Source: Candidatus Rokuibacteriota bacterium (GTDB lineage: Bacteria; Methylomirabilota; Methylomirabilia; Rokubacteriales; CSP1-6). Taken from it: a stretch of 61,161 nucleotides of DNA. Shown here in pieces: positions 4,311-43,490 of the stretch. Positions within the stretch are counted from its first letter, which is position 1; each line of letters starts with the position of its first letter. A program made the position numbers and the translations under genes. The notes below the pieces were generated by a model. That model saw only the letters and a program-made list of their open reading frames with translations, ran no database searches and was not told where the DNA came from. The stretch covers positions 1-61,161 of the forward strand of contig QHSI01000107.1 in assembly GCA_003221515.1 (NCBI GenBank), written 5' to 3'.

Positions 4311-7013
4311 CTAGCCATGCGAGCTCTCGTCCGACGCGTGACGCGCTTTGATCTTGGCCTGCGCGGCCGAGAGTCGCGCGATCGGGATCATGAAGGGCGA
4401 GCAGGACACGTAGGTCATGTTCACCCGATGACAGAACTCGACGGACGACGGCTCGCCGCCGTGCTCACCGCAGATGCCCACCTTGAGGTCGTGCCGCGCG
4501 CGCCGCCCGCGCTCGATACCGATCTTGATCAGCTCCCCCACCCCTTCCTGGTCGAGCACCGAGAAGGGATCGTGCGGAAGGATCCCCTTCTGCAGGTAGT
4601 CCGGCAGAAACTTCGCGACGTCGTCGCGACTGTAGCCGAACGTCATCTGCGTGAGGTCGTTGGTGCCGAACGAGAAGAACTCGGCGGTCTCCGCGATCTG
4701 ATCGGCGATGAGCGCGGCGCGGGGCACCTCGATCATGGTCCCGATCAAGTACTTGACCGGCACGCCCATCTCGGCGATGACGCCGTCGGCGACCTTCTTC
4801 GTCTGCTCGTATGTCAGCCGCATCTCGCCGACCGTGCCGGTGAGGGGGATCATGATCTCCGGCTCGACGCGGCCCCCCTGGCTGGCGACCGCGCACGCCG
4901 CCTCCATGATGACCCGCACCTGCATGCCGTAGATCTCGGGGAAGGTGATCCCGAGCCGGCAGCCCCGGTGACCCAGCATCGGGTTGGCCTCGCGGAGCGT
5001 CTCGATCTTGGCGATCCGATCGTCCAGCAGGCGCTGGCGCTCGGGGTTCACGCCGAGCGCGTCGAGACGCACGCGCTCCTCGATCATCTCCTTGTACTCC
5101 TTGGGCGTCGTCAGGAATTCGTGCAGCGGCGGGTCGAGCAGTCGGATCGTGACCGGCAGTCCGTCCATCGCGCGGAAGATGCCGACGAAGTCCTGGCGCT
5201 GGAACGGCTCCAGCTTCTTGACGGCCGCGTGTCGAGTCGCGGCGTCGGGCGCCATGATCATCTCGCGGACGATCGGGATGCGTTCGGCCGCGAAGAACAT
5301 GTGCTCCGTGCGCACGAGGCCGATGCCCTCGGCGCCGAACTCCCGCGCCTTGCGCGCGTCCTCGGGGGTGTCGGCGTTCGCCCGTACGCCCAGGGAGCGG
5401 TACTTGTCCGCCCACTCCAGGAACTCCCGGAACTCGTCGCGGAGCTCGGGCTGGATCGTCTGCACGCTGTCCAGGATGACCTCGCCGGTGTTGCCGTCGA
5501 CCGAGATGATGTCGCCCTCGCGTACCCGGCGGCCGTCGGCCTCGAAGGAACGGTGCTCCTCGTCGACCAGCACGTCGCTGGCGCCGACGACGCACGACTT
5601 CCCCATGCCCACCGCCACCACCGCCGCGTGGGAGGTGCGCCCACCGCGCGCCGTCACGATGCCCTGCGAGGCGTACATGCCGGCGACGTCTTCGGGCGAC
5701 GTCTCAGGTCGCACGAGGACGACATGCTCGCCGGTCTTCGCCCACTCGACGGCGCGGTCGGCGTCGAACACGACCTTCCCGACCGCGGCGCCGGGCGCGG
5801 CCGGCAGCCCTCGAGCCAGGAGTCGGCCGCGGGCGATCGCCGCCGCCTTGTCGGCGGCGTCGAAAACCGGATGGAGCATCTGGTGGAGGTCGTGGGGACG
5901 CACCCGCAGGAGCGCGGTGTGCTCGTCGATGACGCTCTCGCGGACGAGGTCGACCCCAACGCGCACGGCGGCGGCGGCCGAGCGCTTTCCAGACCGCGTC
6001 TGCAGGAGGTAGAGCGTCCCTTCCTGGATCGTGAATTCGATGTCCTGCATGTCCTTGTAGTGGCGCTCGAGACGGTCGGCGATCGCGAGCAGCTGGTCGT
6101 AGATGTCCGGCATCCGACGGCGCAGCTCATCGATGTGCTCGGGCGTGCGGATGCCCGCCACCACGTCCTCACCCTGCGCGTTGGCCAGGAATTCGGCGTA
6201 GAAACGATGCTCACCGGTGCGCGGGTCGCGGGTGAAGCCGACGCCGGTTCCCGAGGTCTCGCCGAGGTTCCCGAAGACCATCGACATCACGGTCACGGCG
6301 GTGCCCCAGTCGCCGGGGATGTCGTGGATGCGCCGGTACTCGATGGCCTTCTTGGCGAACCACGAATTGAAGACGGCGGCCACGGCGAGCCGCAGCTGGT
6401 CGACCGGGTTCTGCGGGAACGCGGCGCCCGTCCGCTCGACCACGACGTCCTTGTAGGTCTGCACGAGCTTCCGGAGCTCCTGCGCCGGCAGCTTCGGGTC
6501 GGTCTTGATGCCGAGGCGCGACTTGAGCGCGTCGAGGTGCTCGTCGAAGGTCTCCCGCCTGATACCCAGCACCACGTTCCCGAACATCGCGATGAAGCGC
6601 CGGTAGCAGTCCCAGGCGAAGCGCTCGTTTCTCGTCCAGGTGGCGAGCCCCAGCACGGTCGAGTCGTTGAGCCCGAGGTTGAGGACGGTTTCCATCATTC
6701 CCGGCATCGACACTCGCGCTCCGGAGCGGACCGACACGAGCAGCGGGCGGCTCGCGTCACCGAATGCGAGGCCCGACGCCGTCTCGAGCTTTTTGAGATT
6801 CTCGTGCACTTGGTCCCACAACCCCTCGGGCGCGCGCCGGCCGGCGCGGTTATAGCGCGCCCACGCCTGGGTCGTGATCGTGAACCCTGGCGGGACCGGG
6901 ATGCCGAGGTTGGTCATCTCCGCCAGCTCGCACCCCTTGCCCCCGAGCAGGTTCCGCATGAGGGACGAGCCCTCGGCGTGCCCCCCGCCGAAGAAGTAGG
7001 CGTATTTCGTCAT
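4311..7013 (-). CDS. ppdK: Pyruvate, phosphate dikinase
   Basis: Reversible conversion of PEP, AMP and PPi to pyruvate, ATP and Pi. At 900 aa it is a full-length PPDK: N-terminal ATP-grasp ([21 protein letters not shown] near residue 25, then [15 protein letters not shown]), the phosphohistidine domain ([13 protein letters not shown]) and a C-terminal TIM barrel ending with GICGEHGG, whose Cys and flanking residues are catalytic. I chose ATG at 7013 (GGAG 10 bases upstream) over an in-frame GTG at 7163, because a good promoter lies at 7055-7084 and the protein family starts here. As first gene of an ilvBNC operon it likely feeds pyruvate to acetolactate synthase. Confidence 0.96.
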
Positions 7014-7054
7014 AGGCGCGGTTCTCCGTGTTGAATGACCGAAAAAGTCTTGTA

Positions 7055-7084
7055 ATCTTAGTGGATAAGGAGCACCGGTGTCAA
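7055..7084 (-). promoter_or_regulatory. Proximal promoter for ppdK-ilvBNC
   Basis: On the minus strand, a perfect -35 TTGACA (7084-7079), an 18-bp spacer and -10 TAAGAT (7060-7055, four of six consensus). Transcription would start about 7048, giving a 35-base leader before the ppdK ATG. This promoter lies downstream of the hairpin terminator at 7171-7195 and so would escape it. Confidence 0.6.
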
Positions 7085-7170
7085 ACCTTCCGATGCTCTC
7101 CCCGGTCATCGCGCCCATGGTCACCCTTCTGCCCTCGACCGTTCCGGAAGCCGCGCGTACCAAAGAAAAA

Positions 7171-7236
7171 GGCCACGGGGCATTCGCCCGTGGCCTTTCG
7201 AGTCGTCATCGCCACGGGCTCCGTCCCGCCCGTGGC
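7171..7236 (-). terminator. Tandem hairpins with U-tract: terminator, possible attenuator
   Basis: Read on the minus strand: hairpin 1 has arms GCCACGGGC (7236-7228) and GCCCGTGGC (7219-7211). Hairpin 2 has arms GGCCACGGG (7195-7187) and CCCGTGGCC (7179-7171), followed at once by TTTTTCTTT (7170-7162), a classic intrinsic terminator. Because both hairpins share the CCACGGG core, the second arm of hairpin 1 can pair with the first arm of hairpin 2 over 8 bp, which would disrupt the terminator. This 1:2/3:4 versus 2:3 choice is the geometry of amino-acid attenuators. A plain terminator for the transcript above it is the simpler reading. The rest of the 353-base gap between gntR and ppdK holds the mini-ORF and two promoters listed separately. 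Confidence 0.75.
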
Positions 7237-7249
7237 ATCCGATGTCGTA

Positions 7250-7333
7250 CTAGCTCGCGGATGCTCCGGGCGGGCCCGGCAGCGCCAGCAGAATCAGACC
7301 CAGTGCCGTTACCCGCGAAGTCGTCCTGGTCAC
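7250..7333 (-). CDS. Candidate 27-aa leader peptide, Leu/Ile-rich
   Basis: A GTG-started mini-ORF, too short to be called by length. Residues 11-18 read LGLILLAL, then PGPPGASAS and TAG. The -10 box TATACT lies 8 bases before the GTG, so the message would be leaderless. The stop is 13 bases before the first hairpin arm (7236). The peptide precedes an operon that makes leucine/isoleucine/valine precursors, and its composition (five Leu, one Ile and an internal Val) resembles ilv/leu leader peptides. Against this, the Leu codons sit over 40 bases upstream of hairpin 1, so the simple stalled-ribosome model does not fit perfectly. It could instead be a chance ORF inside a small RNA, or a tiny membrane peptide. 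Confidence 0.4.
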   Translation of the reverse strand: MTRTTSRVTALGLILLALPGPPGASAS

Positions 7334-7341
7334 GGCCGGGG

Positions 7342-7370
7342 AGTATACGGACTCGTCACGACGTCGTCAA
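7342..7370 (-). promoter_or_regulatory. Distal promoter upstream of the leader mini-ORF
   Basis: Minus strand: -35 TTGACG (7370-7365), exactly 17 bp spacer, -10 TATACT (7347-7342); five of six matches in each box. The predicted start coincides with the GTG of the mini-ORF at 7333. The -35 overlaps the gntR stop codon. A transcript from here to the U-tract would be about 170 nt. Confidence 0.6.
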
Positions 7371-8146
7371 GCACGCTCGCGTCGGCGGCTCCGCGTCCCG
7401 TGGGGCGCCGTGCCGAAGACGAGCGCCTCGACCGCGATCACGTGATCGAGCATCGCCTGGTGCGCCGCGGCGCCGTCGCGCCGCTCGATCGCCTGCAAGA
7501 TCCGGAGATGGTCCTGGTGCGAGCGCGTGGGCCGCCCCGGCGTGTTGAGGGATTCCTCGCGGCTCTGGGTGAGCAGGTCCATCAGCGCGTGCACGATCCG
7601 TGTGATCGCGCGATTGTGCGCGGCGGTGCCGATCGCCTCGTGGAACGCGGCATCCTGCGCGAGGCCGGTCTTGCCATCGCCGATCTCGCGGGCCTGGTCG
7701 TCGAGGATCCGCTTCATCTCCTGGACTTCTTCCGGCGTCGCCCGGCTGGCCGCGAGCGACGCGATGGCCGGCTCCAGGACGCGCCGGGCCTCGAACAGCT
7801 CGCCGATCGCCTCGCGCTGGGCCGTCATCACGAGAGCGAGCGGGCCGACCAGCGAGTCGACCGACATCTCGCGCACGAACGTCCCCTCACCCGGTCGGAT
7901 CTCCACGAACCCGAGGCTCTCGAGGGCGCGCAGGGCCTCGCGCACGGAGGTGCGGCTCACCACGAACTTCTCGGCGAGGTCGCGCTCGGGGGGCAGCTGG
8001 TCTCCGCTCTTGAGCCGCCCCTCCGCGATGAGCTGCTTGACCTGGCGGACGATCTCCTCGTAGATCCGGGTCGACTTGATCGGCCCGAGCTCGATGGGCT
8101 GGCGTCCGGCGTCCCGATCGGCGCGCGGGGGCTTCGACATAGCCAT
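7367..8146 (-). CDS. FadR-family (GntR/FCD) transcriptional regulator
   Basis: DNA-binding repressor or activator that responds to a small carboxylate, by family. It is 259 aa: N-terminal winged helix (IVRQVKQLIAEGRLKSGDQLPPERDLAEKFVVSRTSVREALRALESLG region, roughly residues 28-75; wing RPGEGTFV) and a C-terminal FCD domain with the metal-binding His residues expected of this family (FHEAIG, SHQDH, MLDHV). ATG at 8146 was chosen (GAGG 6 bases upstream; 7 bases after the terC stop); ATG at 8140 is possible. It is the last gene of the tctCBA-terC string. A matching TGGT-N3-ACCA operator lies at the oxidoreductase promoter (15530-15542). Confidence 0.9.
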   Translation of the reverse strand: MAMSKPPRADRDAGRQPIELGPIKSTRIYEEIVRQVKQLIAEGRLKSGDQLPPERDLAEKFVVSRTSVREALRALESLGFVEIRPGEGTFVREMSVDSLVGPLALVMTAQREAIGELFEARRVLEPAIASLAASRATPEEVQEMKRILDDQAREIGDGKTGLAQDAAFHEAIGTAAHNRAITRIVHALMDLLTQSREESLNTPGRPTRSHQDHLRILQAIERRDGAAAHQAMLDHVIAVEALVFGTAPHGTRSRRRERA

Positions 8147-8153
8147 AGTGGCC

Positions 8154-8852
8154 TCAGAGCTTCTCCGGGACGCGAGCGTGGCGGTGGCCTCGTCCGAGCC
8201 ACCAACCGATGACCGAGATAACCAGGCCAATCACGATCGGGACCGGATGGAGGAGTAGTTTCGCCGTGTCGCCGAGCCATCCGCGGATGACCGAGTCGCT
8301 CATCATCATCTCGCCCGCAACATAGCCGAGGAGCCCGCCGCCGAGCCAGACGATCCAAATGTAGCGATTCATGAGGCGGGCCAGGATCGCTGCGCCCCAG
8401 ATGACGATCGGGAGGGAAAGCCCGAGTCCAAACATCACGAGCAGAAGGTCGCCATGCGCCGCGGCGGCGATCGCCAGGACGTTGTCGAGACTCATCGTCA
8501 CGTCGGCCACGATGATGATCCAGATCGCCTCCCACAGCGAGGCGCCGTGGCGAACCTGGCCCTCACCGCCCGTCTCCGGTCGTACGAGCTTGATGGCGAT
8601 CCAGACCAGGAGGAGTCCTCCCACGAACTGGAGGAACGGGACCCGGAGGAGGACACTGATGATCGCCACGAAGATCAGCCGCAGCACCACCGCGCCCGCC
8701 GCGCCCCACACCTGGCCGAGCATTCGTTTTCGCCTGGGCAGCGTTCGGACGGCCAGGGCGATGACCAGCGCGTTGTCGCCGGAGAGGAGCAGGTTCAGCA
8801 CACTGATGCCGAAGAGGCGGATCCAGAACTCGGGGTCTGCGAGAACCGCCAT
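8154..8852 (-). CDS. TerC family integral membrane protein
   Basis: 232 aa with about seven hydrophobic segments and the TerC signature acidic motifs inside membrane helices: SGDNALVIALAV (about residues 24-35) and TMSLDNVLAIAAAA (about 115-128). Family members act in metal-ion (often Mn) export or envelope stress; tellurite resistance is only the historical name. Its ATG shares a base with the tctA stop (TGATG), so it is translationally coupled to a tripartite tricarboxylate transporter, an unusual partner. The basic tail GRGHRHARVPEKL ends the protein. The transported ion cannot be read from sequence. Confidence 0.85.
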   Translation of the reverse strand: MAVLADPEFWIRLFGISVLNLLLSGDNALVIALAVRTLPRRKRMLGQVWGAAGAVVLRLIFVAIISVLLRVPFLQFVGGLLLVWIAIKLVRPETGGEGQVRHGASLWEAIWIIIVADVTMSLDNVLAIAAAAHGDLLLVMFGLGLSLPIVIWGAAILARLMNRYIWIVWLGGGLLGYVAGEMMMSDSVIRGWLGDTAKLLLHPVPIVIGLVISVIGWWLGRGHRHARVPEKL

Positions 8853-10363
8853 CACGTCGCCCGCGGCGCTGGCGCCGACCCATGGAAGCGCCGCCACCAC
8901 GGCGTCAGCGCCGGGAGCACGAAAAAGAAGATCGCGACCGCCGTGATCGCGCCGGCGATCGGGCGCGTCACGAAGATCCCCGGCGTCCCCTGGGACATGA
9001 TCAAGCTCTGACGGAGCGCGTTTTCCGCGAGGTCGCCGAGCACGAGCGCCAGCACCAGCGGGGCGAGCGGATAGTCGAGCTTCTTGAACGCGTAGCCGAC
9101 GACGCCGAAGATCAGCATGTACCAGATGTCGATCATACTGCTGTGCACCGCGTAGGAGCCGACCGCGCAGACGACCACGATCACTGGCGTGAGGATCGCG
9201 AACGGGATCCGGAGGATCGCCGCGAAGAGCGGCACGAAGGCCAGGACCATCAGGACACCGATGAAGTTGCCGGTGTACATGCTGGCGATGAGTCCCCAGA
9301 CGAACTCGGGCTTCTCCTGGAACAGGAGGGGCCCGGGCTGCAGCCCCCAGATGATGAGACCGCCCAGCATCACCGCGGCCGTCGGCGATCCCGGGATCCC
9401 CAGCGTGATCATGGGCAGGATCGCCGCCACGCCGGCGGCGTGCGCCGCGGTCTCGGGCGCGACGACCCCTTCGAGCTCGCCCTTGCCGAAGCGCTCCGGA
9501 TGCTTCGAGAACCGCTTGGCGAACGCGTAGCTCATGAACGAGGCCGGCGTCGCCCCGCCCGGCTTGAAGCCCATCCAGAAGCCGATGAACGCCCCGCGCA
9601 CGAAGGTGCGCCGGTAGCGCGGGAGCACCTTCCAGGTATCGAGGACGACGCGCAGGTTCATCCCCGTCGGAATGCTGCGGAAGGAGAGCCCTTCTTCCAC
9701 CGACAGGAGGATCTCGCCGATTCCGAAGAGACCGATCACCGCGACGATGAAGTCGAAGCCCTTCATGAGGTCCAGGAAGCCGAACGTCATCCGGAGCTGA
9801 CCGGTCACGACGTCGAGCCCCACGGCGGCCAGGATGAAGCCGAGCAGGATCGCGACCAGCGACTTGACCGGGTTGCCGCCCCCGAGCCCCACGAAGCTCG
9901 AGAACGTCAGGAGCTGGATCGCGAAGAACTCGGGCGGCCCGAACTTCAGCGCGACCTCCGCCAGCAGGGGCGCGAAGAACGTGATGAGGACGATCGAGAA
10001 CAGCGCGCCGACGAACGACGAGGTGAAGGCGGCCGTGAGCGCCTGGCCGCCCTGTCCCTGTCGGGCCAGCGGGTACCCGTCGAAGGTCGTCGCGACCGAC
10101 CACGGCTCGCCCGGGATGTTGAAGAGCACCGACGTGATGGCGCCGCCGAAGAGCGCCCCCCAATAGAGCGACGTCAACAAGATGATCGCCGAGGTCGGGG
10201 GCATCGTGAACGTGAGCGGCAGGAGGATCGCGACGCCGTTGGCGCCGCCGAGCCCGGGCAGCACGCCGATGACGGTTCCCAGCGTGATGCCGACGACGGC
10301 GATGAACAGGTTGTAGGGCGTGATCGCGACGTGGAACCCGAGGAGGAGGTTCTCGATGCCCAC
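8852..10363 (-). CDS. tctA: Tripartite tricarboxylate transporter, large membrane subunit
   Basis: The main permease subunit of a TTT secondary carrier, powered by an ion gradient and fed by TctC. It is about 503 aa with roughly 11-12 membrane segments and the family signature early on (GTVIGVLPGLGGANGVAILLPL region, about residues 27-49), plus a second Gly/Pro-rich repeat (GIPGSPTAAVMLGGL). The start is uncertain: GTG at 10363 gives GIENLLLGFHVAITPYN, the usual family beginning; an in-frame TTG at 10369 overlaps the tctB stop. No strong ribosome site is seen, consistent with coupling to tctB. The substrate is unknown. Confidence 0.93.
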   Translation of the reverse strand: MGIENLLLGFHVAITPYNLFIAVVGITLGTVIGVLPGLGGANGVAILLPLTFTMPPTSAIILLTSLYWGALFGGAITSVLFNIPGEPWSVATTFDGYPLARQGQGGQALTAAFTSSFVGALFSIVLITFFAPLLAEVALKFGPPEFFAIQLLTFSSFVGLGGGNPVKSLVAILLGFILAAVGLDVVTGQLRMTFGFLDLMKGFDFIVAVIGLFGIGEILLSVEEGLSFRSIPTGMNLRVVLDTWKVLPRYRRTFVRGAFIGFWMGFKPGGATPASFMSYAFAKRFSKHPERFGKGELEGVVAPETAAHAAGVAAILPMITLGIPGSPTAAVMLGGLIIWGLQPGPLLFQEKPEFVWGLIASMYTGNFIGVLMVLAFVPLFAAILRIPFAILTPVIVVVCAVGSYAVHSSMIDIWYMLIFGVVGYAFKKLDYPLAPLVLALVLGDLAENALRQSLIMSQGTPGIFVTRPIAGAITAVAIFFFVLPALTPWWRRFHGSAPAPRAT

Positions 10364-10365
10364 CG

Positions 10366-10827
10366 TCAATGGCCCAGCCAGGCTTCGAGCGGGCCCTTGG
10401 GCATCGGGACCAGGAACCATTTCTCGAAGACCAGGAACGTGACCAGGGGGAACAGGACGGCGACGGCGAGCACGGTGAGCCACGCGTGGCGCCCGATCCA
10501 TCGCATGTAGAAGCCCGTATAGAGCGCGGCGGAGACGTAGAGCCCGAGCCAGTGGATCAGCGCGACGAACGCGACCGCAGGCGCCAGCACCTTCAGCACG
10601 GGGCCGAGCTGCTGCCGCGTCACGAAGGGCGTTCCGTCGGCGCGCCGCGCCGCCTGGAAGAAGATCGTCACGCAGGCGGCGATCAGAAGCGCGCCGAGCC
10701 AGAACGGGAGGAATCCGCTCTGGGGCCCGTCGGTCCCCCACCCGGTGCCGAGCCGAACCGCGTCGAAGACGACGAGCCCACCCAGGAGGGCCAGGAACGA
10801 CGCGGTGACGAGGTCGGCGAGGCGCAT
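10366..10827 (-). CDS. tctB: Tripartite tricarboxylate transporter, small membrane subunit
   Basis: 153 aa with four hydrophobic segments (about residues 8-28, 42-62, 80-110 and 118-140), the layout of TctB. It helps TctA in the membrane. It lies between tctC (15 bases upstream) and tctA (adjacent or overlapping). C-terminus is PKGPLEAWLGH; the PxGPLEAWLG ending is common in TctB proteins and supports the call. Sequence conservation in this family is otherwise low. Confidence 0.88.
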   Translation of the reverse strand: MRLADLVTASFLALLGGLVVFDAVRLGTGWGTDGPQSGFLPFWLGALLIAACVTIFFQAARRADGTPFVTRQQLGPVLKVLAPAVAFVALIHWLGLYVSAALYTGFYMRWIGRHAWLTVLAVAVLFPLVTFLVFEKWFLVPMPKGPLEAWLGH

Positions 10828-10841
10828 GCGTGCGAGGCCGC

Positions 10842-11834
10842 TTACTTCTTCAGCAGCCCTCCCTTGCCCATGAGCTCCTTGTGGAGCCGCTCGTTCTCCT
10901 CGACCCACGTCACGTACTCGGCGCCGGCGGCGAAGGCCGGCCTCAGCGCGCCCTCCTCCATGTATTTCTTCCACTCCGGCGTCTCGGTGACCTTCTTCAG
11001 GAACGCCACATACCAGTCCACCGCGTCCTTGGGCATGTTCGGCGCCCCGAAGATGCCGCGCAGCATCAGGTAGCTCACGTCGGCGCCGAGCGCTTCCTTG
11101 ATCGTGGGGATGTTCTTCCACTCGCCGACGGTGAGCCGCGCGGTGTCGAACACCGCGAGCGGGCGCACCCGCCCGGCCCTCCAGTGGCTCGCGCACTCGG
11201 CCGGGTTGTTCACGGTCGAGTCCACGTGCTTGCCGACCAGGTTGACGCACACCTCGCCGCCCCCCTTGAAGGGCACGTAGGTGAACTTGACGCCCGCGAG
11301 AGCCTGCTCGAGCTGGATCGTGAGGATCTGGTCTTCCTGCGCCGAGCCGGTGCCCCCCATCAGACACTGGCCCCCCTGGCGCTCCTTGCACTGCTTGTCC
11401 TTGACGGCGGCGAGGTATTCCTTGGCGGTCTTGTATGGCGAGTCCGCGTTCACCCACAGAACGAACTCATCGAGGGCCATGCGGGCCAGCGGCGTGTAGT
11501 CGCGCCAGTTGAACGGGAGGTTGTTGTGCAGCGGCGTCGTGAAGAGATTCGAGAGCGTGATGATGATGGTGTGGGCGTCGCCCTTCTTGTTCTTGACGTC
11601 GAGGAATCCCTCGGCGCCCGCGGCGCCGGACTTGTTGACGACGATGAGCGGACGGGGCGTGAGCTTGTGCTTGTCGGCGAGACCGGCGATCAGCCGCGCC
11701 ATCTGATCGGCGCCGCCGCCGGTTCCAGCCGGCACCACGAACTCGATCGGCTTGGCCGGCTCCCACGCGATCGAGGAGTCGGGGACGATGACCAGCGAGG
11801 CGAGGACGGACAGGAGGACGCTGCTGAGCTTCAT
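10842..11834 (-). CDS. tctC: Tripartite tricarboxylate transporter substrate-binding protein
   Basis: Periplasmic receptor of the TTT system, 330 aa. A signal peptide covers about residues 1-23 (MKLSSVLLSVLASLVIVPDS, then A/W). The mature part starts WEPAKPIEFVVPAGTGGGADQMAR, the typical TctC/Bug beginning, and continues through NLPFNWRDYTPLARM and the C-terminal TPEWKKYME region. An internal pair of cysteines (KQCKERQGGQC) is unusual for the family. GGAG lies 6 bases before the ATG. Clustering with an oxalate-oxidoreductase-like enzyme suggests a small 2-oxo or dicarboxylic acid ligand (inference). Confidence 0.94.
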   Translation of the reverse strand: MKLSSVLLSVLASLVIVPDSSIAWEPAKPIEFVVPAGTGGGADQMARLIAGLADKHKLTPRPLIVVNKSGAAGAEGFLDVKNKKGDAHTIIITLSNLFTTPLHNNLPFNWRDYTPLARMALDEFVLWVNADSPYKTAKEYLAAVKDKQCKERQGGQCLMGGTGSAQEDQILTIQLEQALAGVKFTYVPFKGGGEVCVNLVGKHVDSTVNNPAECASHWRAGRVRPLAVFDTARLTVGEWKNIPTIKEALGADVSYLMLRGIFGAPNMPKDAVDWYVAFLKKVTETPEWKKYMEEGALRPAFAAGAEYVTWVEENERLHKELMGKGGLLKK

Positions 11835-11849
11835 CGTTCGCTCCTTTAC

Positions 11850-11866
11850 CCGAGGCCAGGCCTCGG
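11850..11866. promoter_or_regulatory. 17-bp perfect palindrome upstream of tctC
   Basis: CCGAGGCC-A-GGCCTCGG: two 8-base arms about one central base, 16-32 bases before the tctC ATG and overlapping the place where a promoter or leader would lie. It has the size of a dimeric repressor operator. It does not match the TGGT-N3-ACCA type seen at 15530. Confidence 0.4.
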
Positions 11867-11888
11867 TGCACGTTCGTCAGATGCGAAA

Positions 11889-11917
11889 GGCCGGGCCCCG
11901 TTTCCGGGAGCCCGGCC
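11889..11917 (-). terminator. Hairpin after the oxidoreductase beta gene
   Basis: Arms GGCCGGGC (11889-11896) and GCCCGGCC (11910-11917), extendable by C:G pairs toward the loop, followed on the minus strand by TTTCGC. It is GC-rich with a short U run, so termination may be partial, letting some transcription continue into tctCBA. Confidence 0.55.
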
Positions 11918-11965
11918 CAGCGTACGACGGCGCGACGGCGAGCGTCCTTGACGAGCTCCGCGCCC

Positions 11966-12997
11966 TTACTTTGGCGCGAGCGCCGCTTTGGTGGCGTCGA
12001 GCCGCCGGAACGGCACCACCGCCGGAATCTCCCACTTCTCCCACATCTCGTCGACCTTGGCCTGGAAGTACTCGAGGTCCTCCTCGAGGAAGTGGGCGAA
12101 CCGCCCCTGCTTCAGGAGGTACTCGCGCACCGGCTTGCGGGCGCGCCCCTCGACGATCGCCTTGGTCTTGCCGTAGTACTTCACCTGCCCGTCTTCGACC
12201 TCGTAGAGCGGGAAGATGCCGGTCTCGATCGCCAACTCGCCCAGCTCGTGCGACAGCATCGGGTCGTAGTCCCAACCCTTCGGGCACGGGTCGAGCGAAT
12301 GGATGAACGTCGGGCCGCCGATCGTCAGCGCGCGGCGCACCTTGTTCATCATCTCCACCGCGTACGAGGCGCAGACGGTCGCCACGTAGCGGCACTCCGG
12401 ATGCCCCGCCGCCATCAAGCCGGCCATGTTCTTCTTCCAGCGCGTGTGGATGAGACGCTTCACCTTGCCCGGAGGGCTGAACGTGGTGTTGGCGCCGTAC
12501 GGCGTCATCCCGGAGAGCTGGATATCGGTGTTGGCGTACGACTCGTTGTCGTAGAGGAGAATCAGCGAGTTGTACTCCTTGTGCGTCAGCGTGGCCGAGA
12601 TCGCTCCGAGCCCCATGTCGGCCCCGCCGCCGTCGCCGCAGAAGGCGATGACGTTGATGGGCTCGGATTTCATCTTGCCCTTACGCATGAGAGCCTTCAG
12701 TCCAGCCGCGGTCCCGAGCGCCGCCGACCCCGAGGATCCCAGCTGCGTGTGCATCCACGGCACCACCCAGGGCGTCGTGTAATACGTCGTGTTCGCGACG
12801 TACATACATCCGGTCGAGCCGAGCACGATCGTGCGCGGCCCGGACGCCTTCACCATGAGCTTCATGACCAACGCGGACTCGCACCCCTGACACGTCCGAT
12901 GCCCGGACGTGAAGTACTCCTCGATCGTGACCCGCTTGACGCCGCGGAAGGGCTCGAGGATCTGCGTGGCGTTGCTGAACGTCGTCGTCTCGGCCAT
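11966..12997 (-). CDS. 2-oxoacid:ferredoxin oxidoreductase beta subunit (oxalate oxidoreductase-like)
   Basis: TPP-binding subunit of an enzyme that oxidises a 2-oxoacid and reduces ferredoxin. It is 343 aa. Cysteines for a [4Fe-4S] cluster are visible in RTCQGCES (near residues 34-41), STGCMYV and SLDPCPKGW. The TPP/Mg motif is GDGGGADMGLGAISATLTHKEYN followed by YDNESY, matching the GDG...N pattern. The CPGC of most pyruvate or ketoglutarate enzymes is CQGC here. Gene order is gamma-delta, alpha, beta with 11 bases between alpha and beta. Substrate assignment rests on the alpha subunit. Confidence 0.9.
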   Translation of the reverse strand: MAETTTFSNATQILEPFRGVKRVTIEEYFTSGHRTCQGCESALVMKLMVKASGPRTIVLGSTGCMYVANTTYYTTPWVVPWMHTQLGSSGSAALGTAAGLKALMRKGKMKSEPINVIAFCGDGGGADMGLGAISATLTHKEYNSLILLYDNESYANTDIQLSGMTPYGANTTFSPPGKVKRLIHTRWKKNMAGLMAAGHPECRYVATVCASYAVEMMNKVRRALTIGGPTFIHSLDPCPKGWDYDPMLSHELGELAIETGIFPLYEVEDGQVKYYGKTKAIVEGRARKPVREYLLKQGRFAHFLEEDLEYFQAKVDEMWEKWEIPAVVPFRRLDATKAALAPK

Positions 12998-13008
12998 CGT
13001 GGCTTCTC

Positions 13009-14241
13009 CTATTCCCGCACGCCCAGCCAGTGGGTCTTTGGGTCGGATTTCCCGGCCTTGGCGGCCGCGTAGCAAAGGTCGGTCGCCTTGTAGACGTCTT
13101 CGAGCGTCACCTCGCGGCCGCCCAAACCGCAAATGAAGGAGAGGAGCGGTGGCCGCCGGTCGGCATTGTACAGGGCGGCGCGGATCTCGTTGGCGACCAC
13201 GCCCGAGCCGAACGGCGAGCCGAAGGAATAATCGCGGTCGATGATCCCCAGCGCCGACGCCTTCGAGAGCGCCGCCACGAGCTTCTCGGTCGGGAACGGC
13301 CGGAACCAGCGCAGCCGCACCAGGCCGACCTTCCGGCCTTTGGCGCGCATCTCGCGGATGGCGACCTTGATCGGCAGCGAGATGGTGCCCATCCCGACCA
13401 GGATCACCTCGGCGTCGTCCGTCATGTACTCCTCGAACCAGGGGTTCTCCGGTCCGCGTCCGAAGACGCGGCGGAAGTCGGCGTACGCCTCCTCGATGAC
13501 GCCGACGGCGCGGGCCATCGCTTCGTTGTTCTGCCGGCGAATCTCGATGACCCAGTCCTCGTTCGCCTGAGGCGCGACGGTGATCGGGTTGTCGGGATGC
13601 AGCAGGAGGTCCCCGCGGTTGTAGCGCGGCAAGAACTGATCCACCTTCGACTTGGGCGGCACCATCGTGAGCGCCTGCGAGTGGGTGAGGAACGCCCCGT
13701 CCGCGGAGATCGCGAGCGGCAGGAAGACGCGCCGGTCCTCGGCGACCCGATAGGCGATCAGCGTGGTGTCGAGCGCTTCCTGCGACGTGTCGATCCAGCA
13801 GAGGAGCCAACCGACGTCCCGGACGACGAGCGCGTCGTTGTGCTCGACGCCGAAGGCGCCCGGATCGTCGAGCGCGCGGTTGCCGACGAGGGCGACCATG
13901 GGCACGCGCAACGGCGGCGTGACGACCAGGCACTCCATCGCGTACATCCAGCCGACTCCGGACGAGCCGCAGAAGACCCGCGCGCCCACGGTCGACGCGT
14001 GCTTGACGATCTCGAACTGGCTGTGCTCGCCCTCGGCGACGATGTACTCGGCCACGAGCTGGCCGCCCGAGATCTTCTTGGCGATCGCCTGCATGACCGT
14101 GTCGTACGGGCGGATCGGATACGCCGTCACGACGTCCAGGTCGGCGAGCGTCAGCGCTTCGGCGACGGCCTCGCTGCCGGAGATCAGGAGTTCCTTGTCT
14201 TCTTCGTGGCCGGCCGGAGCCGCCTGGGTCACAACGGCCAT
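13009..14241 (-). CDS. 2-oxoacid:ferredoxin oxidoreductase alpha subunit (oxalate oxidoreductase-like)
   Basis: 410 aa, covering the pyrimidine-binding domain and the domain II transketolase-C-like region. The substrate-site motif is YPIRP (residues 41-45) instead of the YPITP of pyruvate and ketoglutarate enzymes. As I recall from the Moorella oxalate oxidoreductase structure, that Thr-to-Arg change marks the oxalate enzyme, which uses a second Arg and an acidic loop after it. Here Arg121 in GNRALDDPGAFG sits in the matching place, with Asp124/Asp125. EGEHSQ (70-74) and the C-terminal VGLVRLRWFRPFP are family features. Best call is oxalate or a closely related small 2-oxoacid; not proven. 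Confidence 0.88.
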   Translation of the reverse strand: MAVVTQAAPAGHEEDKELLISGSEAVAEALTLADLDVVTAYPIRPYDTVMQAIAKKISGGQLVAEYIVAEGEHSQFEIVKHASTVGARVFCGSSGVGWMYAMECLVVTPPLRVPMVALVGNRALDDPGAFGVEHNDALVVRDVGWLLCWIDTSQEALDTTLIAYRVAEDRRVFLPLAISADGAFLTHSQALTMVPPKSKVDQFLPRYNRGDLLLHPDNPITVAPQANEDWVIEIRRQNNEAMARAVGVIEEAYADFRRVFGRGPENPWFEEYMTDDAEVILVGMGTISLPIKVAIREMRAKGRKVGLVRLRWFRPFPTEKLVAALSKASALGIIDRDYSFGSPFGSGVVANEIRAALYNADRRPPLLSFICGLGGREVTLEDVYKATDLCYAAAKAGKSDPKTHWLGVRE

Positions 14242-14275
14242 TGCGCTGGTCCTCCCGTTTTACGTATCGCTGCGG

Positions 14276-15484
14276 CTAGACCGTTTTGTGCTGCGCGTTC
14301 TCGCCCGGAATGCCCGCGGTGATCTCGACGCCGCCGGCGTCGAGGTTCGTCTCGAGCTCCTTCTCGTACTGGCCGCGGAAGCGGAAGCCGTGCGAGCGTA
14401 CGGTGGCGTTCTTGTCGCCGATCTTCGACGTCATCCAGGTCTTGTAGCCGCCCTTGTCCTTGCGCCACATCTCCCACTGGCTCGCGTTGTCGTCGAACAC
14501 TGACTCGTTGACCATGGTGATGCAGTGCTCCACCGGACACACCGCCTCGCACACGCCGCAGCCGCAGCACGCCTCCATGTTGGCATCGTACGTCCCGTCG
14601 GGCATGACGTCGAAGCAGGAGTCGGGGCACTGGATCCAGCAGAGCGTGCACTTCACGCACGTGTCGAAGTCGATGACCGGGCGCATCGTGCGCGTCGTGA
14701 ACTTCTTGAAGTACGGATTGCGCTCGGGCACGTAGCCCTTGCCGGACTCCTTCGGCTTGCCCACCGGGATCGCCGGGATCGTCACGCCCTCCCGCATCTC
14801 CCACCACTTGGGCATCTCGAACGAGTACGGGATCTCGGCGTTGCCCTCGGTCATCGTGACCTCGCGGGTCTCGAGCCGCCCGTGGGCCTTCTTCGCCGAC
14901 TCGACCTTGAGGTCCGAGCCCCACTCCATCTCCCGGATGGCCTCGCCGACCCCGTCGAGCGTGAGGAAGGCCGGCGCGATCTTGGCGAGCGCCCCGAGGA
15001 TACGCACCTCGGTGTGGTCTTCGCGGTAGACCCAGAGGCCGGAGAACGACGCCTTGGCGCGGAGGAGCGCCAGCTTATACGGCGCGTCCTTCTTGTGGAT
15101 GTCCTTCAGCAGGCTGTCGAAGCTCTGGAGCGAGGTCATCAGCAGGGTGCCGTTGGGCACCGTGAGGCGGTTGATGGGCTGGAGCCCGTACCACGCCCAC
15201 GACTCGACGCCCTTGGACAGCGTGTCGTCCACGGCGATCGTGACGTCGACATGCTTGGGCTCGTAGCGTGCCATGTTCTGCTCGAGCTCTTCCTTGGTGT
15301 CGGCGACGATCGCGAAGTCCTTCGCGGGGATGCCGTTCCGCTGCGGGCTGTCCCCGTACCGCCCGAACGCGATCCCCCATCGCCCCGACTTGCGCGCCGA
15401 GAGCACGATCCCGCGGGTGATGCGCGCGGCGAGGTTTTTCTGGAAGATACCGCGGTAGACGACCTCACAGATCAGGGCTGCCAT
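14276..15484 (-). CDS. 2-oxoacid:ferredoxin oxidoreductase fused gamma-delta subunit
   Basis: 402 aa. The N-terminal gamma domain begins CEVVYRGIFQKNLAARITRG and contains NRLTVPNG. The C-terminal delta part is a two-cluster ferredoxin: CVKCTLCWIQCPDSC (about residues 277-291) and CCGCGVCEAVCP (about 307-318). Eight cysteines in two CxxCxxCxxxCP-type sets bind two [4Fe-4S] clusters carrying electrons to ferredoxin. A gamma-delta fusion is also the arrangement of oxalate oxidoreductase, supporting that assignment. A 60-residue tail after the clusters is extra. First gene of its operon, 46 bases downstream of the operator. Confidence 0.92.
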   Translation of the reverse strand: MAALICEVVYRGIFQKNLAARITRGIVLSARKSGRWGIAFGRYGDSPQRNGIPAKDFAIVADTKEELEQNMARYEPKHVDVTIAVDDTLSKGVESWAWYGLQPINRLTVPNGTLLMTSLQSFDSLLKDIHKKDAPYKLALLRAKASFSGLWVYREDHTEVRILGALAKIAPAFLTLDGVGEAIREMEWGSDLKVESAKKAHGRLETREVTMTEGNAEIPYSFEMPKWWEMREGVTIPAIPVGKPKESGKGYVPERNPYFKKFTTRTMRPVIDFDTCVKCTLCWIQCPDSCFDVMPDGTYDANMEACCGCGVCEAVCPVEHCITMVNESVFDDNASQWEMWRKDKGGYKTWMTSKIGDKNATVRSHGFRFRGQYEKELETNLDAGGVEITAGIPGENAQHKTV

Positions 15485-15529
15485 TCACGCCTCCTCTACC
15501 ACCTCGTGACCAGGGGGGCTCGTGGTCGG

Positions 15530-15542
15530 CTGGTCTGACCAG
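15530..15542. promoter_or_regulatory. FadR-type operator
   Basis: CTGGTC-T-GACCAG, a perfect palindrome containing TGGT-N3-ACCA, the site type bound by FadR/FCD-subfamily GntR regulators. It lies just downstream of the -10 box at 15545-15550 and covers the predicted transcription start, so a bound repressor would block initiation. The likely binder is the GntR protein at 7367-8146. Confidence 0.7.
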
Positions 15543-15544
15543 AC

Positions 15545-15573
15545 AGATTACTGGCAGGCCTCCAGCCTGTCAA
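15545..15573 (-). promoter_or_regulatory. Promoter of the oxidoreductase operon
   Basis: Minus strand: -35 TTGACA (15573-15568, perfect), 17-bp spacer, -10 TAATCT (15550-15545, partial match). The -35 falls in a 16-bp imperfect tandem repeat (15558-15573 and 15574-15589, two mismatches, core GCCTCC-GCCTGTC). Confidence 0.6.
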
Positions 15574-15602
15574 GCCTCCGGCCTGTCGAGGGCTCGTCTC
15601 GG

Positions 15603-16394
15603 TCAGCCGAGCTTGCTCAGGAAGCCGACGAGCGCCTGCGTGAACGCTTCCGGCTGCTCCATGTTCGAGAGGTGCGCCGCGGACTTCAAGATGGCGAGCT
15701 GGGAGCCCTTGATCTGCTCGTTCATGACCCGCGACGCGGCAACCGGCGTGCCCTGATCCTCCTCGCCCACGATGATCAGCGTGGGCAACTTGATCACGCC
15801 GATGCGGTCGGTCAGGTTGAGCGACGAGATCGCCTGGCAGCAGCCGATGTACCCGACGGGGTTCGTCGACCGGATCATCCCGCGAACACGCTCGACGACC
15901 TCCCCGCCCCGCTCCCTGAACGGCGTCGTGAGCCAGCGGGCCAGCGTGCCCTCCACGAGCGGCTCCATCCCCTTCGTCTCCGCGGTGTGGACACGCTCGT
16001 CCCACAGGGGCTTGGCCTCGGGCGGAATGCGGCTCGAGGTGTCGCACAGCACGAGGCTCGAGAAGAGCTCCGGGGCCTTGAGCGCGAGGGTCTGGCCGAT
16101 CATGCCGCCCATCGAGAGCCCGACCCAGTGGGTGCGCGCGATCCCGAGGGCGCGGAGCAGCGCCTGGGCGTCGTCGGCCAGCTGATCGAGGGTGTAGGCA
16201 CCCCGGGGGGCGTCGGTGCCGCCGTGCCCGCGCGTGTCGTAATTCAGCACCCGCCAGCGCGCGGTCAGCGCTTTGAGCTGTGGCTCCCACATCGCGAGCG
16301 TCGTCGCCAACGAATGGCTCAGCGTGACGACCGGCGCGCCGGTCGGACCGTCCAGCGTGTAGTTCATCGAGATCCCGTTGGCCGTGATCTTCAT
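15603..16394 (-). CDS. Alpha/beta-fold hydrolase (3-oxoadipate enol-lactonase-like)
   Basis: 263 aa, complete alpha/beta hydrolase. Oxyanion region LSHSLAT near residue 25, YDTRGHGGTDAP, nucleophile elbow GLSMGG (Ser about residue 93), acid in GEEDQGTP and catalytic His in SAAHLSNMEQPE. The overall pattern resembles PcaD enol-lactonases, but this group also holds esterases and is often over-annotated. It is the last gene of the pdx string, 36 bases after the split-barrel gene. No catechol or beta-ketoadipate genes are nearby, so its substrate is open. Confidence 0.85.
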   Translation of the reverse strand: MKITANGISMNYTLDGPTGAPVVTLSHSLATTLAMWEPQLKALTARWRVLNYDTRGHGGTDAPRGAYTLDQLADDAQALLRALGIARTHWVGLSMGGMIGQTLALKAPELFSSLVLCDTSSRIPPEAKPLWDERVHTAETKGMEPLVEGTLARWLTTPFRERGGEVVERVRGMIRSTNPVGYIGCCQAISSLNLTDRIGVIKLPTLIIVGEEDQGTPVAASRVMNEQIKGSQLAILKSAAHLSNMEQPEAFTQALVGFLSKLG

Positions 16395-16430
16395 CGCCCG
16401 TCCTCCCCTAGTCGCCGCGCACTGCGCAGC

Positions 16431-17051
16431 TCACCGTCCGGCGGAGTCGATCGTCCACTGCAGCGCATCGGCGGCGCGCCCGTCGGCCGGGCGGCCGCGC
16501 CTGCGGAGCTCGGCGATCACGCGCCGCCGCGCCTCCGCGGGACGATTTTGCCCCAACTTGAACTTCGCGCGCCAGTGGGTGATGTCGAGCCTCACCGCGG
16601 CCAGCTGGGCCATCGCGCCACGGTAGAGCGGATCGTTCGGGTCGAGCGTCCGGAACCCGCCCTCAGGCTGATAGCGCGCCAGGAGCTTCAGCTGCTGCGC
16701 CGCCACCGCGGCCGGGTCCTCCGCGACGTGGGCCGTGCACTCGAAGATCACGGTCTGGTGATAGGCGGTCGCCGATCCTCCGTACTCGGCGTGGACCCAG
16801 TAGGACGGGATCACCGCCAGGACCTCGTCGACCTCGACCACGCAACGCGGGCGCAGCTTCAAGTCGTGGATCTGCTCGTCAGCCCTCACCAGGTGGATCT
16901 CGAAGCTTTTCCCGTCGTAGACGAACGGGTATAACCCGACGTGGGGAAGCGCCTCGTCGCTCACGGTCAGGAGGCGAGCGAGCTCCTGCGTCTGCACGAA
17001 GCGGTCGACGTCGGGGCGCGGGATGTTCGAGTAGTAGTCGTGGAAGATCAC
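16431..17051 (-). CDS. FMN-binding split-barrel protein (PaiB / pyridoxamine-phosphate-oxidase-like)
   Basis: 206 aa. A beta-rich N-terminal domain of the pyridoxamine 5'-phosphate oxidase fold (FVQTQELARLLTVSDEALPHVGLYPFVYDG region) and a C-terminal KFKLGQNR motif like that of PaiB-type proteins. Starts with GTG overlapping the pdxT stop (GTGA), so it is coupled to PLP synthase. Family members bind FMN (known); a role in B6 salvage or in sensing is inference from context. The last 40 residues are Arg/Ala-rich and not conserved-looking. Confidence 0.7.
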   Translation of the reverse strand: MIFHDYYSNIPRPDVDRFVQTQELARLLTVSDEALPHVGLYPFVYDGKSFEIHLVRADEQIHDLKLRPRCVVEVDEVLAVIPSYWVHAEYGGSATAYHQTVIFECTAHVAEDPAAVAAQQLKLLARYQPEGGFRTLDPNDPLYRGAMAQLAAVRLDITHWRAKFKLGQNRPAEARRRVIAELRRRGRPADGRAADALQWTIDSAGR

Positions 17052-17635
17052 GCGGCGATCCGAGCCTGGCCGACCATGTCGCAGAAGTACCGGTGGATCA
17101 CCGTGCTGTCGGTCAGCTCGGGATGGAACGTCGCCACCAGGACGCTGCCGTACCGCGCCATGACCGGCTCGCCCCCGTGCTCGGCGAGCACGTGAACGTC
17201 GGGACCCACGCGGCGGATCCGCGGCGCCCTGATGAAGAACATCTCGATGCGCGTGTCGACGCCGTCGAGCCGCGCCACCCCCGCGGCCTCGAACGACTCG
17301 CGCTGGCGCCCGTACGCGTTGCGCTCGACGGTGACGTCAATGAGCCCGAGCGAGAACTGCCGCGGGCCCTCGACCTCGCGCGCCAAGATGATGAGCCCCG
17401 CGCAGGTGCCGAAGAGCGGCTTGCCGGCGCGATGGAACTTCTCGATCGCCGGCACGAAGTCCCACGCGTCGATGAGCTTGAGCAGGGTCGTGGACTCGCC
17501 CCCGGGGATGACCAGCCCGTCGACGGCGTCGAGCTCGGTGGGCTTGCGCACCTCCACCGCCTCGACGCCGCACTTCTCCAGCGCCTTCGCGTGTAACCCG
17601 AAGTCGCCCTGGAGGGCGAGGACGCCGACTCTCAC
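17048..17635 (-). CDS. pdxT: PLP synthase glutaminase subunit
   Basis: Releases ammonia from glutamine for PdxS in the DXP-independent vitamin B6 route. 195 aa with the class I glutamine amidotransferase triad: Cys78 in GTCAGLI, and His/Glu in FHPEL near residue 172. PGGEST (residues 44-49) contacts glutamine. Start ATG lies two bases after the pdxS stop; its own stop overlaps the split-barrel gene. Confidence 0.96.
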   Translation of the reverse strand: MRVGVLALQGDFGLHAKALEKCGVEAVEVRKPTELDAVDGLVIPGGESTTLLKLIDAWDFVPAIEKFHRAGKPLFGTCAGLIILAREVEGPRQFSLGLIDVTVERNAYGRQRESFEAAGVARLDGVDTRIEMFFIRAPRIRRVGPDVHVLAEHGGEPVMARYGSVLVATFHPELTDSTVIHRYFCDMVGQARIAA

Positions 17636-41855: not shown

Positions 41856-43490
41856 ATGAAGGCGGCGGCGGCGGTCGCGGAAATCCTGAAGCGCGAGGGC
41901 GTGAAATTCCTCATCGGCTACCCGGTCAACCCCATCATCGAAGCGGCGGCCGAGGCTGACATCCGGACGATCATCGTCCGTCAGGAGCGCACCGGACTCC
42001 ACATGGCCGACGCGGTGAGCCGCATCTCGTCGGGCGATCGCATCGGCGTGTTCGCGATGCAGCACGGCCCCGGTTCCGAGAACGCCTTCGGCGGTGTGGC
42101 CCAGGCCTACGGCGACTCGGTGCCGATCGTGGTGCTGCCGGGCGGCTACCCGCGGCGGATCACGAACATCCAACCCAACTTCAACTCGTTCCTGAACTTC
42201 CAGCACGTGACCAAGTGGTGCGAGCAGGTCATTGTGCCGGACGCGGTGGTGGACGCGATGCGCCGGGCGTTCACGCAGGTCAAGAACGGCCGGCCGCGCC
42301 CGGTGCTGATCGAGTTCCCCGTCGATCTCCTGAGAGAAGACGTGCCGGTGCCGATCCAGTACACGCCGGCGCCCCGGCTGCGCTCGGGGCCCGATCCGCG
42401 CGACGTCTCGCGGGTGGCCGAGGCGCTCGTGGCCGCCCAGCGGCCCGTGATCTACGCCGGCCAGGGCGTGCACTACGCGCGGGCCTGGCAGGTCCTGCGC
42501 GAGCTGGCCGAGCTCCTGGAGGCGCCGGTGACGACCAGCCTGCAGGGCAAGAGCGCGTTCCCGGAGAACCACCCGCTGTCGCTCGGCTCGGGCGGGCGCT
42601 CCATCTCCCAGCAGCTCCACCATTTCCTTCAGAACACGGACCTAATTTTCGGCATCGGCTGTAGCTTCGCCACGACGAACTACGGGGTCACGATGCCGAA
42701 GGGCAAGCGCATCGCCCACGCCACGCTCGACCCGACCGACATCAACAAAGACGTGCCGGCCGAGCTGGCGCTGGTCGGCGACGCCGGGCTCACGCTGCAG
42801 GCCCTGCTGGTCGAGGTGAAGGACCGGCTCAAGGGCGGGCCGCGCGGCCGCTACTCGGCCGTGACCCAGGAGATCAAGAACCTCAAGAGCCAGTGGCTGG
42901 AGAAGTGGACGCCGCGGCTCACCGCCGACACGAAGCCGCTGTCGCCGTATCGCGTGATCTGGGATCTCATGCACACGGTCGACGTCGCGAACACGATCAT
43001 CACCCACGACGCCGGCAGCCCGCGCGACCAGATCTCGCCGTTCTGGGAGCCGGTCTCGCCGCTCAGCTACATCGGCTGGGGCAAGACCACGCAGCTCGGC
43101 TACGGCCTGGGCCTCGCGATGGGCGCCAAGCTCGCCGCGCCGGACAAGCTCTGCGTCAACGTCTGGGGCGACGCCGCGATCGGCTTCACCGGGATGGACT
43201 TCGAAACGGCCGTGCGGGAGCGGATCCCCATCATGTCCGTGCTGCTCAACAACTTCTCGATGGCCATCGAGCTGAAGGTCATGAAGGCGGCCACCGCCAA
43301 GTACCGCTCCACCGACATCAGCGGCGACTACGCCGCGATGGCGCGCGCCTTCGGTGGCCACGGCGAGCGCGTCAGCGAGCCCGCCGAGATCGTGCCGGCC
43401 ATCCGGAGAGCGATCCGCAAGACGCAAGAGGGCACGCCCGCGCTCCTGGAGTTCATCACCGAGAAGGCCGAAGACTTCTCGATGTTCTAG
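41856..43490 (+). CDS. Thiamine-diphosphate-dependent enzyme (acetolactate synthase-like fold)
   Basis: 544 aa. Catalytic Glu44 in RQERTGLHMADAVSR, FAMQHGPGSENAFGG, central domain, and TPP/Mg motif GDAAIGFTGMDFETAVRER ... LLNN near residue 431. Clearly not the ilvB gene: it is shorter, has no regulatory subunit, and its N-terminal GYPVNP replaces FGLPGG. Members act on 2-oxoacids, oxalyl-CoA, sulfopyruvate or phosphonopyruvate; substrate open. GAGGAG 8 bases before ATG. Followed 7 bases later by the LLM gene. Confidence 0.82.
   Translation: MKAAAAVAEILKREGVKFLIGYPVNPIIEAAAEADIRTIIVRQERTGLHMADAVSRISSGDRIGVFAMQHGPGSENAFGGVAQAYGDSVPIVVLPGGYPRRITNIQPNFNSFLNFQHVTKWCEQVIVPDAVVDAMRRAFTQVKNGRPRPVLIEFPVDLLREDVPVPIQYTPAPRLRSGPDPRDVSRVAEALVAAQRPVIYAGQGVHYARAWQVLRELAELLEAPVTTSLQGKSAFPENHPLSLGSGGRSISQQLHHFLQNTDLIFGIGCSFATTNYGVTMPKGKRIAHATLDPTDINKDVPAELALVGDAGLTLQALLVEVKDRLKGGPRGRYSAVTQEIKNLKSQWLEKWTPRLTADTKPLSPYRVIWDLMHTVDVANTIITHDAGSPRDQISPFWEPVSPLSYIGWGKTTQLGYGLGLAMGAKLAAPDKLCVNVWGDAAIGFTGMDFETAVRERIPIMSVLLNNFSMAIELKVMKAATAKYRSTDISGDYAAMARAFGGHGERVSEPAEIVPAIRRAIRKTQEGTPALLEFITEKAEDFSMF

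Follow-up and report, generated by a model that had tools for sequence, protein, structure and literature searches.

A probable second subfamily of oxalate oxidoreductase, sister to the Moorella type, in Rokubacteria and other phyla

Introduction

In soil, oxalate ranks among the major products of plants and fungi. The closest described system to the one reported here is the Moorella-type oxalate oxidoreductase (OOR), for which a ‘bait-and-switch’ mechanism has been put forward, with Arg31 and Asp116 as key residues and Asp116 as the ‘switch’ half (PMC5020499). A large survey of oxalate genes counted OXDD, FRC and OXC, and omitted OOR for lack of information (PMC8062136). Here we analyse a three-gene locus at positions 11966-15484 of a 61,161-nucleotide contig (QHSI01000107.1, assembly GCA_003221515.1) from Candidatus Rokuibacteriota bacterium (Methylomirabilota; Rokubacteriales; CSP1-6). 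This whole stretch is called the window, and enzymes of the same clade are called window-type. Moorella-type OOR is already known; what is new is a discrete sister clade with its own switch-loop signature. Judged from its sequence, the locus likely encodes a thiamine pyrophosphate (TPP)- and [4Fe-4S]-dependent oxidoreductase that oxidises oxalate, as a second subfamily sister to the Moorella-type enzymes. A preliminary description of the DNA had proposed such an activity in a lineage not known for it; we found no literature on OOR in Rokubacteria or in the window clade.

Results

Organisation of the locus

Three intact open reading frames span 11966-15484 on the minus strand in the order gamma-delta, alpha, beta, separated by gaps of 34 bases (gamma-delta/alpha) and 11 bases (alpha/beta). 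The ATG start of each is preceded by a purine-rich stretch. The features of the enzyme are as follows.

14276..15484, minus strand: fused gamma-delta subunit, 402 amino acids (top PDB match 5c4i_B, top Foldseek match 5c4i_E, alignment)
14537..14659, minus strand: two delta [4Fe-4S] motifs, Cys 276/279/282/286 and 306/309/312/316
13009..14241, minus strand: alpha subunit, 410 amino acids, POR_N and PFOR_II (PDB 5c4i_A, Pfam, Foldseek)
14107..14121, minus strand: YPIRP motif, alpha 41-45, with Arg44 equivalent to Moorella Arg31 (alignment)
13849..13878, minus strand: switch loop R122-ALDDPGAF-G131 of alpha (alignment to Moorella OOR; role of R31/D116 from PMC5020499)
11966..12997, minus strand: beta subunit, 343 amino acids (top PDB match 5c4i_C)

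Kinship with Moorella OOR

For each of the three subunits, a sequence search of the PDB placed Moorella OOR first among the solved relatives. The alpha subunit matched 5c4i_A (E=1.9e-96, 43% identity), followed by the pyruvate:ferredoxin oxidoreductase (PFOR) of Methanosarcina at 5.9e-61; beta matched 5c4i_C (E=3.7e-88; PFOR 1.1e-60), and gamma-delta matched 5c4i_B (E=1.4e-18, about 24% identity to Moorella). Fold searches with Foldseek agreed. The predicted alpha model had 5c4i_A as its top match (template modelling (TM) score 0.91; Methanosarcina PFOR alpha 0.90), and the gamma-delta model, with a predicted local distance difference test (pLDDT) score of 80, had 5c4i_E (E=3.8e-23), with top matches that were all OOR at ~1e-22 and PFOR gamma at 2.2e-10. 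The top-scoring NCBIfam models for the three subunits were the OOR equivalog models NF045790/1/2.

In the phylogeny of alpha subunits, the analysis that the preliminary description had named as able to overturn it, the enzyme falls outside PFOR, KOR and VOR. YPIRP enzymes form one group (100/100) apart from all YPITP-type enzymes sampled, within which canonical OORs (100/99) and the window clade (100/100) are sisters, and this topology is unchanged after removal of the motif columns. The window enzyme is therefore placed as sister to, and not inside, the clade of characterised OOR, and it carries no YPITP motif and does not group with PFOR/KOR/VOR. YPITP-type paralogues are present in several related genomes. 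The tree, with and without the motif columns, together with the genome context described below, led us to reject a PFOR/KOR/VOR identity.

Conserved arginines and a divergent switch loop

The YPIRP motif noted in the preliminary description was recovered at alpha 41-45 on translation, its arginine being Arg44. This residue is invariant in all clade members with sequence covering the position, across five phyla, and the position is Thr or Ser in all other (non-OOR) enzymes sampled. Given this clade-wide invariance, and the identity of the alpha subunit to that of Moorella OOR, a chance motif was ruled out. The second arginine claimed for the enzyme is also present, one residue later than first numbered: the alignment pairs R122, in the segment N121 R122 A L D D P G A F G, with Moorella Arg109. 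Its presence does not by itself mark an OOR, because PFORs keep the same arginine (alignment; PMC5020499). The diagnostic alpha positions are instead R44, Y46, D125, G128, F130 and G131. In Moorella numbering, R31, Y33, D112, G115, F117 and G118 are among 17 alpha positions that the two OOR clades have in common and that other enzymes seldom or never show.

The mobile switch loop reads NRA[LV]DDPGAFG in every window-type alpha and [DN]R-x-LDPPGDFG in every canonical OOR. By alignment, R122 corresponds to R109, D125 to D112 and F130 to F117, with D126 replacing P113 and A129 replacing D116. Nine alpha positions tell the two clades apart, and two of these (P113->D126 and D116->A129) lie within the loop, the former giving the window clade a new acid at position 126. 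In the single-chain AlphaFold model of alpha, pLDDT is 84 overall and below 50 for loop 122-134.

The cofactor sites follow the Moorella set of four Cys in beta and eight in delta (three [4Fe-4S] clusters), plus TPP-site residues. In beta, the cluster cysteines are 36/39/64/238 and the TPP-site residue is N156; positions common to both OOR clades are C24/C27/C52/C225, D110, N138 and N143. Beta D158 is clade-specific (Moorella G145) and places a new acid two residues from TPP-site Asn143. The gamma-delta fusion with eight cluster cysteines, also reported in the preliminary description, holds: gamma-delta has 12 Cys, of which the eight listed above make two [4Fe-4S] motifs, and it is a single gene in every window-type locus that could be read through. 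A divergent, long-branched window-type enzyme (Chloroflexota, G749; L176:8569-10990) has a delta without one cluster Cys (CTQTRDC), so that one of its [4Fe-4S] clusters may be altered.

Genome context: regulator and transporters

Downstream of beta, on the same strand, lie genes for a tripartite tricarboxylate transporter, a TerC/YjbE-type protein, an FCD-GntR regulator and pyruvate phosphate dikinase.

10842..11834, minus strand: TctC, periplasmic binding protein of the tripartite tricarboxylate transporter (Pfam PF03401)
10366..10827, minus strand: TctB (Pfam PF07331)
8852..10363, minus strand: TctA membrane subunit (Pfam PF01970, E=1.6e-151)
8154..8840 (start approximate), minus strand: TerC/YjbE-family putative metal transporter (TIGR03717, 213 bits vs cut-off 134.8)
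7367..8140, minus strand: FCD-type GntR regulator (Pfam FCD and GntR)

Neighbours were counted in 34 window-type and 64 canonical OOR loci of at least 9 kb, and in 17 control loci with other 2-oxoacid oxidoreductases. Gamma-delta and beta adjoin alpha in all 34 window-type loci, in the order gamma-delta, alpha, beta. An FCD-GntR homologue accompanies 30 of the 34 window-type and 36 of the 64 canonical loci; the 17 control loci gave two weak matches only (~30% identity). OxlT (the oxalate:formate antiporter) or TctC is found within 4 kb in 15/34 window-type, 32/64 canonical and 0/17 control loci (Fisher vs control, p = 8e-4 and 6e-5, respectively, values inflated by related genomes).

A major facilitator superfamily (MFS) gene stands near the operon in eight window-type loci, within 1.5 kb in seven and at 8 kb in one (L168). 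The MFS genes tested match OxlT, three of them at 480-572 bits against the TIGR04259 cut-off of 335; the actinomycetotal gene falls below this cut-off, and its best solved relative is still OxlT. Such genes adjoin the window clade in Acidobacteriota, Chloroflexota and Actinomycetota, and the best solved relative of the OxlT-type neighbour is Oxalobacter OxlT (3.5e-64). In the OxlT structure, oxalate is bound by Arg272 and Lys355 (PMC10070484), and alignment shows that both residues are kept in 8/8 OxlT-type neighbours. Identity of the window TctC to TctC proteins adjoining canonical OOR (Nitrospirota, Desulfobacterota and NC10 loci) is 59-64%, against 43-47% to the TctC that accompanies window-type OOR in a different family of the same class; the nearest non-Rokubacterial relatives of the window TctCBA adjoin canonical OORs.

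Further genes recur near the operon in part of the clade. Within 4 kb, a TerC-family gene accompanies the operon in 8/34 window-type vs 0/64 canonical loci (the window, L175, L184, L191 and L193-L196), and Nramp-family genes adjoin beta in Actinomycetota and one Chloroflexota locus; these neighbours possibly point to handling of metal-oxalate. Between beta and the Nramp gene, two loci (L193:12618-13817 and the matching gene of L195) carry a BhcA-like aspartate-glyoxylate aminotransferase (451 bits vs cut-off 650). Two Acidobacteriota genomes (G1169, G1121) have two window-type copies each, with one group adjoining OxlT, malate synthase and isocitrate lyase.

Directly upstream of gamma-delta in the window, 15603-16394 encodes a PcaD-type 3-oxoadipate enol-lactonase (268 bits vs cut-off 255.85) that is kept in some close relatives only. 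Elsewhere in the window, 41856-43490 encodes a TPP-requiring protein of the PRK06154 family (884 bits vs cut-off 607). A scan of 7000-17500 for structured RNA near the operon gave no Rfam match.

Distribution of the two clades

The canonical comparison set was the best 80 of 321 matches in a scan of named genomes. Each of these 80 loci was of the canonical type, and their hosts included Firmicutes, Acidobacteria, Nitrospirae, Betaproteobacteria and deltaproteobacterial groups, among others. Window-type enzymes were counted by whole-genome search, the phylum label of each sample being that of its centre genome. They occur in 50/95 Methylomirabilota genomes and in 41 of the 57 genomes of the window's own family (83-99% identity for full-length sequences). 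Elsewhere, they were found in 16/301 genomes of the Chloroflexi-centred sample, 6/246 Actinomycetota, 3/247 Acidobacteriota and 1/297 Desulfobacterota, and in 0/349 genomes of the Pseudomonadota sample. The window clade is a discrete branch spanning at least five phyla.

In Acidobacteriaceae bog_202 (L072:338-9667), a canonical OOR operon is followed in tandem by another FCD regulator, after which a window-type gamma-delta gene begins. In this locus, the canonical delta and a GltD-like FAD/NAD(P) oxidoreductase form one fused protein (610 amino acids). Similarly large delta genes occur in twelve canonical loci, mostly Acidobacteria with some Actinomycetota, which suggests that these twelve encode NAD(P)-linked oxalate dehydrogenases.

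Host metabolism

The window's own genome, a 95%-complete draft of 5.1 Mb with 69% GC in which the window is contig 66, contains three haem-copper oxidase subunit I genes, and the host can thus probably respire oxygen. The oxalyl-CoA route was rejected for this genome, in which no oxalyl-CoA decarboxylase scored above the cut-off; among 30 relatives, one had such a gene above the cut-off.

Discussion

The strongest evidence for a shared substrate is that two diverged enzymes are accompanied by a common regulator type and interchangeable transporters. Ferredoxin-linked oxalate oxidation, as first proposed, is supported independently of the motif by the tree, OxlT, the shared TctCBA and the shared FCD-GntR; the substrate, the direction of the reaction and its independence of CoA are predicted from sequence. 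We classify the enzyme as a sister subfamily, and not as a Moorella-type OOR, because it lacks the loop Asp116 and branches outside the clade of the latter.

A mechanism may be proposed on the model of the known enzyme, in which oxalate(2-) would yield 2 CO2 and two low-potential electrons, without CoA, with reduction of ferredoxin. FCD-GntR would control the operon, and TctCBA (OxlT in relatives) would import oxalate. By alignment with Moorella R31/R109, alpha Arg44 and Arg122 would grip both carboxylates as the ‘bait’. Attack by the TPP ylide would release the first CO2 and leave carboxy-TPP, as in known OOR. Two electrons would then travel to ferredoxin by way of the beta cluster (C36/C39/C64/C238) and both delta clusters, with release of the second CO2; the cluster ligands are present, and the path between them is a proposal. 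As Asp116 is Ala129 throughout the clade, the charge switch has to come about in some other way. Candidates for a replacement are alpha Asp126, in the same loop, and beta Asp158, both clade-specific, and we hypothesise that these new acids compensate for the loss of Asp116. In the window's own genome, given its haem-copper oxidases and no oxalyl-CoA decarboxylase above the cut-off, the enzyme would act as an energy-yielding oxalate sink.

Several observations weigh against oxalate oxidation by the window clade. Asp116, an Asp in all canonical OORs sampled, is lost. None of the subunits reaches its NCBIfam cut-off (76/230, 368/500 and 348/590 bits), and such genes are therefore likely to be annotated generically. 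Some of the genomes behind the neighbour counts are related, and these counts fall short of full independence. OxlT is absent in 24 of 25 relatives searched within the window's own family, its own genome included, so that the transporter link there rests on TctCBA, whose substrate is only predicted. Some genomes carry both OOR types (G041; the tandem operons of L072), and their substrates could therefore differ. Glyoxylate-related genes (isocitrate lyase, malate synthase and the BhcA-like aminotransferase) lie near some members.

These last points bear on the alternative that glyoxylate, or a further small 2-oxoacid such as mesoxalate or oxamate, has become the substrate of the clade, Asp116 having been lost since the substrate charge differs. 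The change to Ala is joined by clade-specific changes at T122, V85 and P94, and the glyoxylate genes and the few genomes with both types would fit. Both substrate arginines are nevertheless invariant, the neighbours are OxlT with both oxalate-binding residues or a TctCBA as found beside canonical OOR, and oxalate and glyoxylate metabolism are linked anyway; we regard such a shift as unlikely. An ordinary pyruvate/2-oxoisovalerate-type ferredoxin oxidoreductase with an incidental YPIRP would share the fold and domain set, and the Methanosarcina PFOR alpha is indeed the next best match in both sequence and fold. The tree, however, keeps the enzyme out of the sampled PFOR/KOR-like sequences, the motif never varies within the clade, several related genomes hold YPITP-type paralogues, and oxalate transporters accompany none of the control loci, which makes this explanation highly improbable. 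The TerC-family and Nramp-family neighbours raise a different prospect, that the reaction is the same and its role another, with oxalate scavenged as a metal complex or detoxified in connection with metal handling rather than growth. Membership of the TerC family does not fix specificity, the loci are partly related, and the oxalate chemistry would stay unchanged; we consider this role improbable, less so than the ordinary oxidoreductase.

Oxalate oxidation by a sister subfamily remains our preferred reading. We further propose, tentatively and with slightly less than even confidence, that the clade is a distinct second OOR class that keeps the arginine ‘bait’ and switches without Asp116 (through alpha Asp126 and/or beta Asp158), and that at least five phyla of O2-respiring soil bacteria, largely uncultured, use it at the same time as a main route of oxalate oxidation, one that frc/oxc surveys would miss. 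If true, a conserved operon carried by 50/95 Methylomirabilota genomes, and by some members of four further phyla, would amount to a large overlooked oxalate sink. The natural D116A/P113D/G145D exchange would also make the bait-and-switch model directly testable across two enzyme classes.

Compared with the OOR of Moorella thermoacetica (5C4I, 5EXD, 5EXE), the window enzyme has the same subunit set, gamma-delta/alpha/beta gene order and fused gamma-delta, as well as YPIRP, both substrate arginines, switch-loop D112 and F117, four beta Cys and eight delta Cys. It differs in having Ala129 for Asp116, Asp126 for Pro113 and beta Asp158 for Gly145, in the extra C-terminal tail of its gamma-delta, and in a host with haem-copper oxidases. 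With the canonical OORs of other bacteria it shares the FCD-GntR regulator, TctCBA or OxlT transporters and 17 alpha positions, whereas these enzymes form a separate clade with an LDPPGDFG loop and a delta that is in many cases a gene of its own or part of a fusion with an NAD(P)-type oxidoreductase. The archaeal-type PFOR of Methanosarcina acetivorans (9BT4; 31% identity) has the same fold, domain plan and Arg109-type residue, and differs from the window enzyme in its YPITP motif, its requirement for CoA and its want of the LDDPGAFG loop.

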